The position numbers and the translations under genes were made by a program. This document shows, one piece after another, positions 3,322 through 26,846 of a stretch of DNA of 28,189 nucleotides (position 1 is the first letter of the stretch; every line of letters starts with the position of its first letter). Origin of the DNA: a virus. The notes under the pieces are model-generated. The model saw only the letters and a list, made by a program, of their open reading frames with translations. It ran no database searches and had not been told where the DNA came from. The DNA lies in the IMG/VR virus record IMGVR_UViG_3300035698_023959, positions 1-28,189 of that record. One strand, written 5' to 3'.

Positions 3322-3840
3322 ATGCCCATCAATGACAGTGTTTCGGTGCTTATAGTCGATGACGATGTACCCACCGTACGACAACTCGCCCGCACTTTGA
3401 AAGGCCAGGACTATATAGTACACACAGCGACGAGCGCCGAAGGTGCTTTGCAGCTATTACCATTGGCCGATATTCTGTGGCTCGATTTGGGACTTCATTC
3501 AAATGGAGCATCGTCTAGGGTCGTTCTCAGTGAATGGATGAGAGCTAAGGACGGTCCTGTATGTGTTTATTCGACTGGGATCACTCGCGATACTGAATGG
3601 GAGATGATGATGTACGGTGCGGACAACGTGTTTCCGAAGCCTATTCGCCCCGACGTGGTCTCGACTGTAATGTTACGATACGCAAGGAGGGTTAAACGAG
3701 ATCAACGACTGGATACAGTGGAGAAGAATCAACAGCTGCTAAAGCGATGGCTCATAGTGGTCGGGATCGCAGCGTTTGGAAGCGGACTGATCGGAGAAGC
3801 GGGCTTTGGCCTAATCAACATCATAGCAACACTTTTCTAA
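3322..3840 (+). CDS. Receiver-domain (CheY-like) protein with C-terminal membrane anchor
   Basis: 172 residues, ATG 3322 after a TAAGGAAG site 10 bases from the previous stop. Residues 7-125 match the response-regulator receiver fold: strand 'VSVLIVDDD' with the acidic pocket D13-D14-D15, phospho-acceptor position D55 in 'ILWLDLGL', hydroxyl residue T85 in 'VYSTG' and lysine K106 in 'FPKPI'. All canonical phosphorylation residues are therefore present. No DNA-binding or output domain follows; instead residues about 142-172 form one hydrophobic segment (WLIVVGIAAFGSG onward), so the receiver would sit in the cytoplasm and be tethered to the membrane. It lies between tail genes and a holin-like gene, at the usual place of lysis genes. 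Function is unknown; binding to host two-component or membrane proteins, or timing of lysis, are inferences. Confidence 0.7.
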   Translation: MPINDSVSVLIVDDDVPTVRQLARTLKGQDYIVHTATSAEGALQLLPLADILWLDLGLHSNGASSRVVLSEWMRAKDGPVCVYSTGITRDTEWEMMMYGADNVFPKPIRPDVVSTVMLRYARRVKRDQRLDTVEKNQQLLKRWLIVVGIAAFGSGLIGEAGFGLINIIATLF

Positions 3841-19129: not shown

Positions 19130-19726
19130 TTATCTCCGTCTCGCTCGCCAAAGCTTGATGCAGCACATACAGACCCCTAAAGTTCCAAGAAACAACAATC
19201 CCGCTGTTGTCGTGGCACTCTCATCGCTGCCAGTTTCGGGTAAGATGAAGGACGGCGTAACTGTTGCTGTTGCTGTGGGAATGGGGGTCGGCGTTGCCGT
19301 TGAACGTTTGCGCTTCCGTGTCGGCGTTGGCGTTACAGTATTTGTGGCCGTCGACGTTGGAGTAGCCGTAGATGTCGGTGTTAGTGTTGGGACTACCTCC
19401 GTAGTCGTCGGTGTAGGAACTACTACTGTCTCTGTCGGTGTTAGCGTTGGAACGGGTGTACTTGTTGGTGTACTTGTTGGGACGGCTGTCTCCGTCGGTG
19501 TCAGTGTCGGAGTAGCCGTGGATGTCGCTGTGTTCGTTGGAGTAGCCGTCGGCGTCGACGTGTTCGTTGGAATTGGGGTGGCGGTCGCTGTGTTCGTTGC
19601 TGTTGCTGTCGCCGTAGGCGGAGGGCACGCTGCGTGCGATCTGCTCATACAGTCAGCAACGACCGTTAATACCCCAATCAGTACGAGAACGGCCAAGAAC
19701 AGGCATGCCTTTGTTTTTGTTGTCAT
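19130..19726 (-). CDS. Cell-wall-anchored Thr/Pro stalk protein with LPETG signal
   Basis: 198 residues from ATG 19726 (GGAGG eight bases upstream), which shares one base with the preceding stop. Architecture in order: an N-terminal hydrophobic signal (residues about 7-24), a mature Cys-containing start ([10 protein letters not shown]), about 120 residues of low-complexity Thr/Pro/Ala/Ser repeats, a basic patch (RKRKR) within them, then 'LPETG' at 162-166, a hydrophobic helix at about 176-189 and the basic end 'RARRR'. This is a complete sortase sorting signal, so the protein should be exported and covalently joined to the host wall. Repeat stalks of this type are frequent in Chloroflexota proteins. 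No binding domain is attached. Function is unknown; a receptor mask, adhesin spacer or superinfection blocker are inferences. Confidence 0.8.
19253..19624 (-). repeat. Low-complexity Thr/Pro-coding repeat
   Basis: A stretch of short imperfect repeats that codes for Thr-Pro-rich units (TPTATPTNT-like) in the LPETG protein. Such DNA is prone to slipped-strand length change, so the stalk length may differ between related phages. Confidence 0.75.
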
Positions 19727-19818
19727 CAAATTGCCTCCACGATTGCGATGATGCAGGAGCAACCGCAGCAAAGCACGGTCGCGACTGCCACGAGAATGAT
19801 TGTCCAGTTACGTTTCAT
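19726..19818 (-). CDS. 30-residue membrane peptide, Cys-rich
   Basis: 30 codons from ATG 19818, with AAAGGA six bases ahead and the start inside the end of the MazG-like gene (11-base overlap). The stop TGA shares one base with the LPETG start (TGATG), so the two are coupled. Sequence: basic 'MKRNW', then a hydrophobic helix with four cysteines (CCGCSC) in the middle, then 'IVEAI'. Family unknown. Confidence 0.5.
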
Positions 19819-21806: not shown

Positions 21807-21835
21807 ATTATATAACAAAAACGCAGAAAAGTCAA
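21807..21835 (-). promoter_or_regulatory. Sigma-70-type promoter for the RHH/nuclease/LPETG operon
   Basis: On the minus strand TTGACT, a 17-base spacer, then TATAAT. Upstream of -35 is a 22-base block (21836-21857) that matches the one at the queC promoter in 19 of 22 positions. Confidence 0.8.
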
Positions 21836-21892: not shown

Positions 21893-21919
21893 CAAAAACG
21901 GCTGACTTAGGCATTTTCG
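21893..21919 (-). repeat. Dispersed CTAAGTCC-type repeat, copy B
   Basis: Minus-strand reading GAAAATGCCTAAGTCAGCCG followed by TTTTTG. It lies upstream of the promoter at 21807-21835, in the same orientation as that transcript. Confidence 0.75.
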
Positions 21920-22079: not shown

Positions 22080-22116
22080 ATTGCGGGGTGTCTTCTCAAG
22101 TGAAATCGGATATAAT
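22080..22116 (+). promoter_or_regulatory. ATTGCGG-type promoter 1
   Basis: ATTGCGGGG box, then exactly 31 bases from its first base to TATAAT (22111-22116), followed by ATATATGTAAGT. No TTGACA-like hexamer at the normal distance. Drives the HTH gene at 22194. Confidence 0.75.
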
Positions 22117-22157
22117 ATATATGTAAGTGGGGGAGGCAAAAAACCAATTCTACTATC

Positions 22158-22172
22158 GCGCCCATAGGGCGC
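22158..22172 (+). promoter_or_regulatory. 5'-leader hairpin before the HTH gene
   Basis: GCGCCC ATA GGGCGC, a 6-bp GC stem ending a few bases before the AGGAGGG ribosome site. It could stabilise the mRNA or affect translation. Confidence 0.5.
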
Positions 22173-22193
22173 ACCCTTTAGGAGGGCATTTTC

Positions 22194-22712
22194 ATGTCTG
22201 AGAACGAAGTTACCGCTACCGCAGTTGAGGAAGTCGCTGAAGTCGTCGCCGAGATCGCTACCGATCGTCTCATTTCCAGCCTGACCGTTGCCGAGTTCAC
22301 GCAGTTGATGGCCTCGTTCAAGCCCGCGCGCAAGACGCAGGGTCCGCGAGCTACGCCAGCCGAGGTTCCGGAAGGGTACACGCTGACCGTCAACGACATC
22401 ATCGCGCAAACCGGGATGCACGGTATGACTGTTCGACGCCTTTGCCGAGAGGGCCTGTTCGGCGAGGATTCGAGCGTTAAGGTTGGCGCTCGATGGTTCA
22501 CGAAGCCGGAAGCGCTCGAAGCGTATCTGGGCGCGAAAGTCGCCAAGAAAGCCGCAACCGCTGCTGCGAAGGTCGCGAAGGTCGAGGCCGCGAAAAACGC
22601 GAAGGTCGCGAAGGTCGATGAGGTCGATGCAGAAGCGATCGAGGACGAGTTGGATCTGGACGACCTGGATCTGGACGAGGACGAGGTCGAGGTCATCGCC
22701 GACGAGCAGTAG
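22194..22712 (+). CDS. HTH DNA-binding protein with Lys/Ala-rich and acidic tail
   Basis: 172 residues, ATG 22194 behind AGGAGGG. Residues about 61-113 are an excisionase/MerR-type winged helix ('LTVNDIIAQTGMHGMTVRRL' followed by 'CREGLF' and 'VGARWFTKPEALEAYL'). Residues about 114-141 are Lys/Ala repeats like histone H1 tails (KVAKKAATAAAKVAKVEAAK), encoded by a repeated GCGAAGGTCG DNA unit, and the end (145-170) is very acidic. The N-terminus is helical and could dimerise. With its own promoter, leader hairpin and strong terminator (22734-22763) it is an isolated, probably well-expressed unit. Possible role: nucleoid-like packing of phage or host DNA, or a regulator of the ATTGCGG promoters; neither is shown. 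Codon use is more GC-rich than in the genes to its right. Confidence 0.75.
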   Translation: MSENEVTATAVEEVAEVVAEIATDRLISSLTVAEFTQLMASFKPARKTQGPRATPAEVPEGYTLTVNDIIAQTGMHGMTVRRLCREGLFGEDSSVKVGARWFTKPEALEAYLGAKVAKKAATAAAKVAKVEAAKNAKVAKVDEVDAEAIEDELDLDDLDLDEDEVEVIADEQ

Positions 22713-22733
22713 ACCGAATCATTCAATCACACG

Positions 22734-22763
22734 AACCCCCACTTCGAAAGAGGTGGGGGTTTT
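22734..22763 (+). terminator. Intrinsic terminator after the HTH gene
   Basis: 12-bp stem (AACCCCCACTTC / GAGGTGGGGGTT, one wobble) with a GAAA loop followed by a T-rich end. Confidence 0.92.
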
Positions 22764-22850
22764 GTGTTCCCCTTTACTCGCCGCTCTACCCGACTGAATG
22801 GTTGCACGAAATCCGCTCCTTCTCAGAGCACGCGCGGTTCAAAAAAGCGA

Positions 22851-22878
22851 GGAAAATGCCTAAGTCCCCCGTTTTTGC
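22851..22878 (+). repeat. Dispersed CTAAGTCC-type repeat, copy C
   Basis: GGAAAATGCCTAAGTCCCCC then GTTTTTGC. It precedes an inverted repeat ATTTTCC ... GGAAAAT (22887-22907). Confidence 0.75.
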
Positions 22879-22912
22879 GAAGGTCAATTTTCCATTGAAC
22901 GGAAAATCGTGG

Positions 22913-22924
22913 TGCACGCGTGCA
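22913..22924. promoter_or_regulatory. 12-bp perfect palindrome
   Basis: TGCACGCGTGCA. It is seen once and may be an operator; no factor known. Confidence 0.35.
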
Positions 22925-23042
22925 TGCCTTTTTGAGCGTACGACCTTTCTATATCATACCGACCCAACTAGATCATACGCCATCGCCAAAGAACATAAAT
23001 CCCCGCTCATGCTGTATCCTAACCATCAATACATTTCCTTCG

Positions 23043-23079
23043 ATTGGGGGTGGTAGTCTTGAACGAAATCGAGTATAAT
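23043..23079 (+). promoter_or_regulatory. ATTGCGG-type promoter 2
   Basis: Variant box ATTGGGGG 31 bases before TATAAT (23074-23079); ATAATTGTAAGTAGG follows. TGTATCCT lies at 23013-23020. Drives the gene at 23127. Confidence 0.72.
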
Positions 23080-23126
23080 ATAATTGTAAGTAGGAAGAAA
23101 AACCGCCAAAAAACAAGGAGACCGAA

Positions 23127-23387
23127 ATGACCAAGTACAGCCGCGAGCAAGTAAACGGAACCGACACGATCATCACCGACCCAATATCGGGCAAAGTAGC
23201 AAAGGTTACTTATTACGCGCACTTGAACGCCTGGCTAGCCTTTTACCGAGTAAACTACACACACACGAACAATAACGGCAAGGTCATCGGCAAATCAGGA
23301 TTCGCTTGGATGCAAATCAAGGGCGACGTGAAATCCAAGAAAATCGCGAACAGTTACGCAACCGGTTGGCTACGCGCAAATCGCTAA
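23127..23387 (+). CDS. Small hypothetical protein, single-gene unit
   Basis: 86 residues, ATG 23127 behind AAGGAG. Own promoter and own terminator. The sequence is a basic, aromatic beta-rich protein ('VTYYAHLNAWLAFYRVNYTH' near residue 27, 'GKSGFAWMQIKGDVKSKK' near 55). No family recognised. A small host-takeover protein is plausible because it sits alone under an independent promoter. Confidence 0.7.
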   Translation: MTKYSREQVNGTDTIITDPISGKVAKVTYYAHLNAWLAFYRVNYTHTNNNGKVIGKSGFAWMQIKGDVKSKKIANSYATGWLRANR

Positions 23388-23407
23388 ACGCAAACAACAT
23401 CTCACGC

Positions 23408-23437
23408 AAAACTCCGCTCGAAAGAGCGGAGTTTTTT
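23408..23437 (+). terminator. Intrinsic terminator
   Basis: Perfect 12-bp stem (AAAACTCCGCTC / GAGCGGAGTTTT) with a GAAA loop and a T-run. Confidence 0.93.
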
Positions 23438-23462
23438 GTTCCCAGTTTTTCAAAAAAAGAGT

Positions 23463-23485
23463 GGAAAATGCCTAAGTCCCCCCGG
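23463..23485 (+). repeat. Dispersed CTAAGTCC-type repeat, copy D
   Basis: GGAAAATGCCTAAGTCCCCC followed by a divergent right end; about 26 bases after the terminator at 23408-23437. Confidence 0.65.
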
Positions 23486-23706
23486 GTTGTTTTCAAAGAG
23501 CAAAAGTGTCCTTTCCCTGTACACCGCAGAAAGTGCTGGGGCTAAATTTCCCCTTGTGTCCGGTAGCCACGGTGTGGACGCACTCCAGTAAGTGTAACAA
23601 GCCGTGTCTTGATTGTCCCCGAAAAACCCGTGAATGTAACCGATCATAAACTGCGGACCGTTCTACATCCTGCCACATAACGTCGTTCGGTGTCTCGAGT
23701 TAAAAG

Positions 23707-23718
23707 GGCGCTGTGCGT
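23707..23718 (-). repeat. 12-mer ACGCACAGCGCC, copy 7
   Basis: Exact copy in the non-coding region 23388-24077. Confidence 0.7.
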
Positions 23719-23898
23719 TGGCGATATCATTAAATTGATCAGGCTAGCAGGAGCGGTCTGTATCCTCATACAGAGAGAGTCGTCGAGAAGTGCGTGAATG
23801 TATCCTTACGTCCTCGTCTCTAAGATTTCGTTGGTTTATTTCCCGACGCTAAAATTCAACTGGCGCGCAAACTACGCGCGTAACTGGGAGACACAGGG

Positions 23899-24009
23899 AT
23901 GTTTTGGGACATAGATACAATTGTGGGTGCAGGCAGCTGGTCAGAAATGCATGAGGACCGCTATGTATCATACATTGCGGGTTGCTATTCTAGGCATTTG
24001 CGGTTATAA
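23899..24009 (+). CDS. Possible 36-residue peptide (doubtful)
   Basis: ATG 23899 with GGGAG eight bases upstream opens a frame starting MFWDIDTIVG and ending in 'YSRHLRL'. It overlaps the following promoter's -10, and I see no promoter of its own nearby. Kept only because of the ribosome site. Confidence 0.2.
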   Translation: MFWDIDTIVGAGSWSEMHEDRYVSYIAGCYSRHLRL

Positions 24010-24010
24010 T
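23974..24010 (+). promoter_or_regulatory. ATTGCGG-type promoter 3
   Basis: ATTGCGGG box 31 bases before TATAAT (24005-24010); preceded by TATCATAC. Drives the gene starting at 24078. Confidence 0.7.
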
Positions 24011-24077
24011 TATATTGAAGTTTTCGCTCAAACACGCGCATAAGCGCACATGCTCGGGAGCCAAGGAGGCTATGTAC

Positions 24078-24542
24078 ATGTTTGCCCTAAAGTACGACTC
24101 GGCCGACTGGAGCGTAGTAGCACAGTTGTGCAAAGGCCAATGTGTGGCACGGATACGATTGGTGTTTCGAAGCCCGGTGGTTGTAACACACCAAGTGTGG
24201 CCTGTACCTGTTACGCGTAGTGTAACGGAGCTGATTTGCAACTCGGTACTGCCTCTCACTACGGATACTTTGGCCGCATGGTTTAACGAAGGCAATGGTA
24301 ACAGGTTTCTGGAAGTGGCTCGCGAAAATGTGCTTGCGTGCGAGGTGGAGTTGGCGAATTCATCGGCGCCCAGTAACCATCCTCAAATGGTGTTGCACTA
24401 TGCAACGCTATCGAACATGGCCGACAAGCATCCCTCCTTGTGCCAAACTTCGCAAGAATGGGCCGATAAGTACGCTGCCGAAGCGGAGCGGCTTGCAAAT
24501 GGGCTCATCGGCTATTACTTACCGTCGTGCAAAAGAAAATAA
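24078..24542 (+). CDS. Hypothetical protein
   Basis: 154 residues from ATG 24078, chosen since AGGAGG lies eight bases before; ATG 24072 is too close, and the frame upstream starts within the promoter. Soluble, with a mixed alpha/beta N-terminus and a helical C-terminus ('SQEWADKYAAEAERLANGLI'). No family recognised. Repeat E follows immediately. Confidence 0.65.
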   Translation: MFALKYDSADWSVVAQLCKGQCVARIRLVFRSPVVVTHQVWPVPVTRSVTELICNSVLPLTTDTLAAWFNEGNGNRFLEVARENVLACEVELANSSAPSNHPQMVLHYATLSNMADKHPSLCQTSQEWADKYAAEAERLANGLIGYYLPSCKRK

Positions 24543-24550
24543 ATTTCACG

Positions 24551-24578
24551 GAAAATCGCTAAGTCCGCCGTTTTTGGC
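24551..24578 (+). repeat. Dispersed CTAAGTCC-type repeat, copy E
   Basis: GGAAAATCGCTAAGTCCGCC then GTTTTTGG, directly after the gene ending at 24542. Confidence 0.75.
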
Positions 24579-24609
24579 GTGATTTTCAAATCTCAAATTT
24601 CGCAAATGC

Positions 24610-24643
24610 GAAGCTCCTACACTGCAAGGGTGCTAGGAGCTTC
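24610..24643 (+). terminator. Hairpin, possible terminator
   Basis: GAAGCTCCTA and TAGGAGCTTC pair perfectly over 10 bp around a 14-base loop. No U-run; may end the transcript from 24005 or be a regulatory structure. Confidence 0.45.
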
Positions 24644-24753
24644 ATGCGTACGACCGGTTTGTATCCTTCTCGCTCCTACTGCATCGCAAGTACACGCAAG
24701 TATACTTACTTCGAGGAGCGCTCTGTATCCTTATAGCACTATGTATATCATAG

Positions 24754-24790
24754 ATTGCGGGGTGTCTGTTTGAGCGAAATCGCGTATAAT
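24754..24790 (+). promoter_or_regulatory. ATTGCGG-type promoter 4
   Basis: ATTGCGGGG box, 31 bases, TATAAT (24785-24790), then ATATATGTAAGTAGG. Almost identical to promoter 1 over about 45 bases. Drives the small-gene series from 25260. Confidence 0.78.
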
Positions 24791-25148
24791 ATATATGTAA
24801 GTAGGTACCTTAACAAATCCAAATCCAAATTACCTTCCTACCAATCTGTAAAGGTAAGCTCCTCAAATTATCACTGAGAGCACTTCCTAGGTCATAACGA
24901 TCGATCTCGACCCGAAGACATCGAGGATCGCCAAATCCTAGCGAACCAGAACAGTGATAATCAAAGGTAGCGCAACAGGATCGGCTTACACCCAATAGGA
25001 ACGAAATGGATCATAACCTCCGCCCTCATATCCGAAATTGGTGCTGGTCGCGGGGAACGTTCAGAAACGAATGAATCGATTGAAAGCAGAACCAAGGGTT
25101 TCATTAGACTACCAATATAGCAGACGATCTTAGTCGATTGTCGCTCTG

Positions 25149-25165
25149 AGTGGTTCAACTCCACT
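25149..25165 (+). other. T-arm-like hairpin in the leader
   Basis: AGTGG TTCAACT CCACT: a 5-bp stem and seven-base loop matching the tRNA T-loop pattern. No acceptor or anticodon stem completes a tRNA. Probably coincidence or part of a structured RNA. Confidence 0.25.
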
Positions 25166-25259
25166 AAAATTCCAAAGGCGCGCAGGAGCAAGCTAGAAGG
25201 AATGAAATCCTAGGTTTTGGGTTCAATCGATATATGTACGATACACAAGGAGAAACGAA

Positions 25260-25511
25260 ATGCAGAACGAGCGAAAATACGTCTTGGCGAACGGCTACGA
25301 GAGACATTTATTCGTAACGATCTTTCACGGTAAGTACGGACTCCCATTGTATCGGAAGCGATTTTCTCGATCGAATACGAGATACTGCAACGCGGACATG
25401 GAAGCACAAGATACCGCAATGTACGATTTCGTACGAGCGAGAGCAACGCTCAGGAAAGAGTTCACGCATATAACACTCAAGATGTCGAATGACATAACAG
25501 GAGGAAAGTAA
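25260..25511 (+). CDS. Small basic hypothetical protein
   Basis: 83 residues, ATG 25260 with AAGGAG nine bases upstream. Basic N-terminal half ('YGLPLYRKRFSRSNTRY') and a helical second half. The leader carries ATATGTACGATACACAAGGA, shared in part with the leaders of the genes at 26153 and 26847. No family recognised. Confidence 0.65.
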   Translation: MQNERKYVLANGYERHLFVTIFHGKYGLPLYRKRFSRSNTRYCNADMEAQDTAMYDFVRARATLRKEFTHITLKMSNDITGGK

Positions 25512-26041: not shown

Positions 26042-26051
26042 GTAGTTGATG

Positions 26052-26115
26052 AACCGAACTGTAGGACTTAGCGATTTTCGTAAAAAGAACGGAATTTTGC
26101 TAAGTCCTACGGTTT
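26052..26115. repeat. Dispersed CTAAGTCC-type repeat, inverted pair F
   Basis: Two facing copies: GTAGGACTTAGCGATTTTCG and GGAATTTTGCTAAGTCCTAC. The arms GTAGGACTTAGC / GCTAAGTCCTAC pair over 12 bp, and ACCG/CGGT extends the stem after a small bulge. It lies 10 bases after a stop codon and may act as a terminator as well. Confidence 0.8.
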
Positions 26116-26152
26116 GATTTCATTAGCGAATGATACACAAGGAGAAAACACG

Positions 26153-26737: not shown

Positions 26738-26806
26738 TAACCGAACTGTAAGACTTAGCGAAAAGGAAATGTTTTTTCGTGAAAATCGCTAAGTCCTACG
26801 GTTTGA
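26738..26806. repeat. Dispersed CTAAGTCC-type repeat, inverted pair G
   Basis: Second inverted pair: AACCGAACTGTAAGACTTAG and GAAAATCGCTAAGTCCTACG. It starts at the stop of the gene ending at 26737. Nearly the same layout as pair F. Confidence 0.8.
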
Positions 26807-26846
26807 CTTATTAACGAATGATATGTACGATACAGGAGGATATAAC

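Follow-up and report, generated by a model that had tools for sequence, protein, structure and literature searches.

The question raised by this locus is how phage promoters that share a perfect −10 element and a box upstream of it are read, and whether they require an activator. The DNA analyzed (the window) is a linear fragment of 28,189 bases from one virus record. It encodes a tail protein, a PolA-type polymerase with a UDG-like domain, a primase, an AAA_24 (Sak4-like) protein, DUF669 and PD-(D/E)XK proteins, and a queuosine block, the gene names of which follow kin phages. A sequence-only reading had assigned four rightward promoters to a class that needs an activator or a modified polymerase. 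We find a related family with a fixed box at about −43 to −36, but the evidence falls short of a separate class. We put at roughly 50% the probability that these promoters are a phage-specific, multi-copy family of primary-sigma type with an extended −35.

All eight clear promoters of the window were aligned on their −10 (Table 1), which is an exact TATAAT in every case (8/8). Six of them, on both strands and including some with recognizable −35 hexamers, carry the box A[CT]TG[CG]G[GT]G immediately before the −35 slot, and the sequence upstream of it is AT-rich in most promoter copies. As the sequence-only reading had stated, ATTG[CG]GGG starts exactly 31 nt upstream of TATAAT at 22111, 23074, 24005, and 24785. 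The accompanying elements that it described are less constant: ATCATA, said often to precede the box, stands 38 nt upstream of TATAAT at every site except 23074, whereas GAAATCG before the −10 and [AT]TGTAAGT[AG]GG after it occur in three of the four and are both missing at 24005.

Table 1. Coordinates and component parts of the eight clear promoters in the window and of two intrinsic terminators
Feature	Span	Strand	Box	−35 or −35 slot	Spacer	−10	Other elements	Downstream
Promoter R1	22080..22127	+	ATTGCGGG 22080-22087	GTGTCT 22088-22093 (slot)		TATAAT 22111-22116	GAAATCG 22102-22108; GTAAG 22123-22127 at presumed start	Presumably drives HTH-like ORF 22194-22712
Promoter R2	23043..23090	+	ATTGGGGG 23043-23050	TGGTAG 23051-23056 (slot), alternatively GTGGTA	18 nt for GTGGTA	23074-23079	GAAATCG 23065-23071; GTAAG 23086-23090	Presumably drives ORF 23127-23387
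Promoter R3	23974..24021	+	ATTGCGGG 23974-23981	TTGCTA 23982-23987	17 nt	24005-24010	No GAAATCG, no GTAAG	ORF within 24015-24542
Promoter R4	24754..24801	+	ATTGCGGG 24754-24761	GTGTCT 24762-24767 (slot)		24785-24790	GAAATCG 24776-24782; GTAAG 24797-24801	460-nt stretch without substantial ORF, strongly folding
Promoter L1	21807..21843	−	ACTGCGTG 21843-21836	TTGACT 21835-21830	17 nt	TATAAT 21812-21807		
Promoter L2	14032..14068	−	ATTGCGTG 14068-14061	TTGATT 14060-14055	17 nt	TATAAT 14037-14032		Queuosine-gene operon
Promoter L3	18772..18800	−	None	TTGCTT	17 nt	TATAAT 18777		
Promoter L4	10119..10147	−	None	TTGACA 10147	17 nt	TATAAT 10124		DNA polymerase
Intrinsic terminator of R1 unit	22733..22762	+					13-bp stem, then U tract	
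Intrinsic terminator of R2 unit	23408..23437	+						

The position of the box is unlikely to be fortuitous. The pattern ATTGNGGG-N21..25-TATAAT has four matches in the window and none in 100 shuffles. The word A[CT]TGCG[GT]G occurs six times on the two strands, five times exactly 31 nt before TATAAT, and two of these five precede the leftward promoters at 21812 and 14037. Adding the ATTGGGGG variant yields a six-member family with one spacing throughout. Box-like 8-mers (at least 6/8) followed by a −10 gave six sites at the 31-nt spacing; other spacings produced only two re-readings of the same six sites. Because the chance of a window position matching ATTGCGGG is low (0.0036 at a threshold of at least 6/8 and 0.00036 at at least 7/8), a match in register at two of the four leftward promoters is not expected by chance. 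The L1 and L2 matches may count as one event, given their mutual likeness (33/58 columns in the alignment on the −10).

These leftward boxes bear directly on the proposal that the rightward promoters stand apart. They had been said to lack a TTGACA-like −35, in contrast to the leftward ones, yet R3 carries TTGCTA with a 17-nt spacer. At spacings of 16 to 18 nt, matches to TTGACA are 6/6 in L4, 5/6 in L1, and 4/6 in both R3 and L2, and weaker in R1, R4, and L3 (3/6 each) and in R2 (2-3/6). R3 thus equals the leftward L2 and exceeds the leftward L3, and the GTGTCT that R1 and R4 have in the same slot retains T2, G3, and C5 of TTGACA. Five of the six boxed promoters have a hexamer with TG at positions 2 and 3 (GTGTCT, TTGCTA, TTGACT, or TTGATT) and a spacer of exactly 17 nt; R2 fits worse. 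An extended −10 (TGn directly before TATAAT) is absent, with TG at −15/−14 in none of the eight promoters. The argument that the box marks rightward promoters without a −35 fails because the box precedes the TTGACT and TTGATT promoters on the other strand, two of the four there, at the same spacing, and because R3 has TTGCTA.

Relatedness among the promoters cuts across orientation as well. R1 and R4 are 83% identical over 71 nt and are therefore recent duplicates, whereas R3 is about equally close to the leftward L2 (30/58 columns) and to its rightward neighbors (23 to 28). From the shared box of L1 and L2, the TTGCTA of R3, and the likeness between R3 and L2, it follows that the split is not one of rightward versus leftward. 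Judged by the aligned motifs, the natural grouping is R1/R2/R4 (weak −35, GAAATCG, and GTAAG), R3/L1/L2 (box plus a TTG −35), and the boxless L3/L4.

The box lies immediately next to the −35 slot rather than taking the place of the −35 as a separate site. In the extended −35 reading, the main sigma-RNA polymerase of the host would read box and hexamer as one element, so that no activator would be obligatory, and the extra contacts would be comparable to those conserved in strong phage early promoters. R1 and R2 would then each serve a small gene with its own terminator, probably one for early takeover; R4 would lead into a candidate structured RNA; and L1 and L2 would drive replication and queuosine-metabolism genes. 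Against this reading stand the weak hexamers of R1, R2, and R4 (2-3/6), as in activator-dependent promoters. The candidate RNA, which may alternatively be the leader of ORF 25260-25511, occupies the 466 nt after R4 (24797-25262, plus strand). This region has no forward reading frame of more than 49 codons between stops, folds at −128.8 kcal/mol (z = −4.84 versus shuffles), and contains a 31-nt inverted repeat (25075-25105 and 25201-25231); no match was found in Rfam and no relative among the kin loci compared.

Related phages were compared as well. A profile search with the polymerase recovered 80 loci each from IMG/VR and from bacterial assemblies, at about 25 to 39% identity, and many of the 80 viral loci have the same gene neighborhood as the window. 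No close relatives were found for the R1 gene, nor for the polymerase when searched with the window protein alone, and the kin from the profile search reached about 38% identity at most. Distant phages, including Bacillus phage BSP7 and Weizmannia phage Youna2, have syntenic replication and queuosine genes. The complete pattern of the window occurs once in each of two of 30 kin contigs (a near-identical pair) and is absent from the others. Of the box, the kin phages share only the GGG beside the hexamer and lack the exact ATTG, which counts against the extended −35 reading. In six related phages, the window included, GG[GC][GT]TG is found exactly 26 nt before TATAAT, i.e., with GG[GC] abutting the hexamer and a 17-nt spacer (per TATAAT sites: Youna2, 9/64; BSP7, 6/79; G021, 10/27; L086, 6/27; L208/L210, 3/13; and the window, 3/15, plus R2 at 27 nt). 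Other offsets average 0 to 0.1 in these six, and the 26-nt placement occurs at 3/428 sites in other viral contigs and 1/614 in bacterial assemblies. The independent cases number fewer than six, since BSP7 and Youna2 are kin (85% terminase identity) and L086 shares its source metagenome with L208/L210.

The flank was more frequent at sites with a −35 than at those without one in Youna2 (8/25 versus 1/40, p=0.0014), BSP7 (6/19 versus 2/56, p=0.0026), L086 (7/10 versus 0/17, p=0.00014), and G021 (9/13 versus 3/15, p=0.012). By these counts, the G-rich flank in kin phages accompanies a [GT]TG −35 hexamer rather than making up for its absence. In Youna2 and BSP7, the promoters with GG[GC] are found close to both structural and replication genes, a placement easier to reconcile with general use than with a single timed activator. 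G021, L086, Youna2, and L083 have multi-copy promoter families of their own, in which the same slots hold other words; that of G021 has 14 members (CCGGC-GTGCC[TA]-17-TATAAT-TAAAAC-ATAAG). Clustering in itself exceeds background only modestly, because the anchor controls gave one cluster of at least three versus three for TATAAT, and the position test is the stronger. The 14-member G021 family (L047/L095-L097) also carries a CCARTTT...AAACTGG dyad, likely a regulator site, some 50 nt upstream of the −10.

Across 61 Bacillota genomes, a group that may not include the host of the window, the flank pattern occurred about 200 times versus about 70 for the reversed control, or roughly 1.3 per Mb (the sums were added up by hand and the per-Mb rates derived from the counts). 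In the five phages that have a multi-copy set, exact matches number about 100 to 300 per Mb. On this tally, the flank is compatible with host promoters yet not common among them. A Thr/Pro-rich protein (19130-19771, minus strand) has an LPETG-like C-terminal sorting motif, unusual for a phage, which points tentatively to a host among Gram-positive bacteria or Chloroflexota. Several leads were rejected. Four IMG/VR matches to ATTGCGGG-N23-TATAATATA fall in contigs without homologous proteins and were taken as chance, and CGGGKTGYCT-N17-TATAAT was not accepted as widespread (25 stretches in IMG/VR versus 17 for an N20 control). RTAAG at +1 is not put forward as a general element: it is absent from other viral contigs and weak in several kin, being locked at +1 in the window (3) and G021 (7), and weaker in Youna2 (3), L083 (2, plus 3 one nt later), BSP7 (2), and L086 (2).

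What else might the box be? An activator site, at which a phage or host protein would recruit polymerase via sigma region 4 or alpha and so offset a weak −35, is a serious contender that we nevertheless consider unlikely. The rigid spacing and the weak hexamers of R1, R2, and R4 fit such a site, and the R1 product weakly matches helix-turn-helix proteins (PHROG excisionase/regulator, 1.5e-4; Pfam HTH_17, 0.0055, below the cutoff). However, promoters with TTGACT, TTGATT, and TTGCTA have the box too, the GGG flank of the kin goes along with a −35 hexamer, and the helix-turn-helix protein annotated in both BSP7 and Youna2, dropped as a shared regulator, has no homologue in the window. It is improbable that a phage repressor instead acts at the box and the other conserved blocks, shutting the promoters off later or in superinfection. 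Some kin promoters do have operator-like dyads over the −35 and spacer (e.g., ACACGGGTTG-N10-CAACCCGTGT in L208, read off by eye) or upstream, as in G021, and the conserved blocks of R1, R2, and R4 reach past +1; the box itself is asymmetric, by inspection R1 to R4 have no matching dyad, and no repressor or integrase was identified in the window.

A phage sigma-like or sigma-remodeling factor that takes over from the −35 contact and recognizes the box, akin to sigma appropriation by T4, appears very unlikely. A perfect −10 combined with a weak −35 in R1, R2, and R4 recalls T4 middle promoters (PMC2988021), but the box lies farther upstream than the MotA box, the −35 is kept in L1, L2, and R3, and the window proteins scanned include no such factor. 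Since the window is a 28-kb fragment, a gene for a phage-encoded factor could lie outside it. Descent alone, with a functionless box copied from one ancestral segment, would account for the R1/R4 duplication, but we give it hardly any credence: box and −10 stay fixed while spacer and upstream sequences diverge (R2, R3, L1, and L2), and the GGG is at the same place in kin phages.

Other repeated sequences in the window are reported as observations in their own right. A dispersed 26-nt intergenic repeat, GAAAATGCCTAAGTCCGCCGTTTTTG, is present at 22852, 23464, 24551, and 27634 (plus strand) and at 21918 and 7104 (minus strand), with degenerate copies at 26092 and 26781 (plus) and 26079 and 26758 (minus); the copies lie mostly just past gene ends or upstream of promoters and are stoperator-like or terminator-like. 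An inverted CTAAGTCC pair forms a long intergenic hairpin at 26048-26122 (plus strand; −37.3 kcal/mol, z = −9.1), and a similar pair is found at 26739-26815. Five plus-strand copies of TGTATCC fall within 1.7 kb (23013, 23759, 23799, 24660, and 24724), and GTATCCT is exactly 60 nt before TATAAT in R2 and R4. A weak GATT...AATC dyad between the box and GAAATCG was spotted by eye. Adjoining the tail genes, 3322-3840 (plus strand) encodes a response-regulator receiver domain protein (Pfam, 1.8e-8).

Should the extended −35 prove genuine and function with host sigma by itself, it would add a promoter element that phages over-use, and it is directly testable in culturable Bacillus subtilis phages that carry it. 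It is doubtful, though conceivable, that the GGG-kTGyC extended −35 (here ATTGCGGG-GTGTCT) defines an undescribed promoter class in a group of PolA/queuosine siphophages, read by a polymerase factor that the group shares and that is either encoded or altered by the phage. Should a phage factor prove necessary, BSP7 would offer a practical system in which to look for it. No description of the BSP7 and Youna2 promoters as a named class was found in the literature searched. Like those of the window, they have GG[GC] immediately upstream of a [GT]TG hexamer, a 17-nt spacer, and TATAAT; unlike them, they have neither ATTGC nor GAAATCG, and their −35 is more often TTGCC[TAC] or TTGAC[AT].

The window family overlaps only partially with the promoters of T4. 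T4 early promoters are "uber" UP/-35/TGn/-10 promoters with documented consensus beyond the −35 and −10 (PMC2988021). They resemble the window family in being multi-copy, in having extra conserved sequence outside those two elements, and in preceding small phage genes, but they have an excellent −35 and a TGn, whereas three of the four rightward copies have a weak −35 and none has the TGn. T4 middle promoters demand a good −10, and a MotA box centered at −30, 12 bp from the −10, replaces their −35 (PMC2988021). No match to MotA or AsiA homologues was found among the window proteins scanned (part of the ORFs of a 28-kb fragment). The likeness to middle promoters consists of a perfect −10, a phage-specific upstream box at fixed spacing, and a weak −35. 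The difference is one of place: the box of the window begins 31 nt ahead of the −10 and does not occupy the −35 slot, which lies downstream of it and which several members fill.
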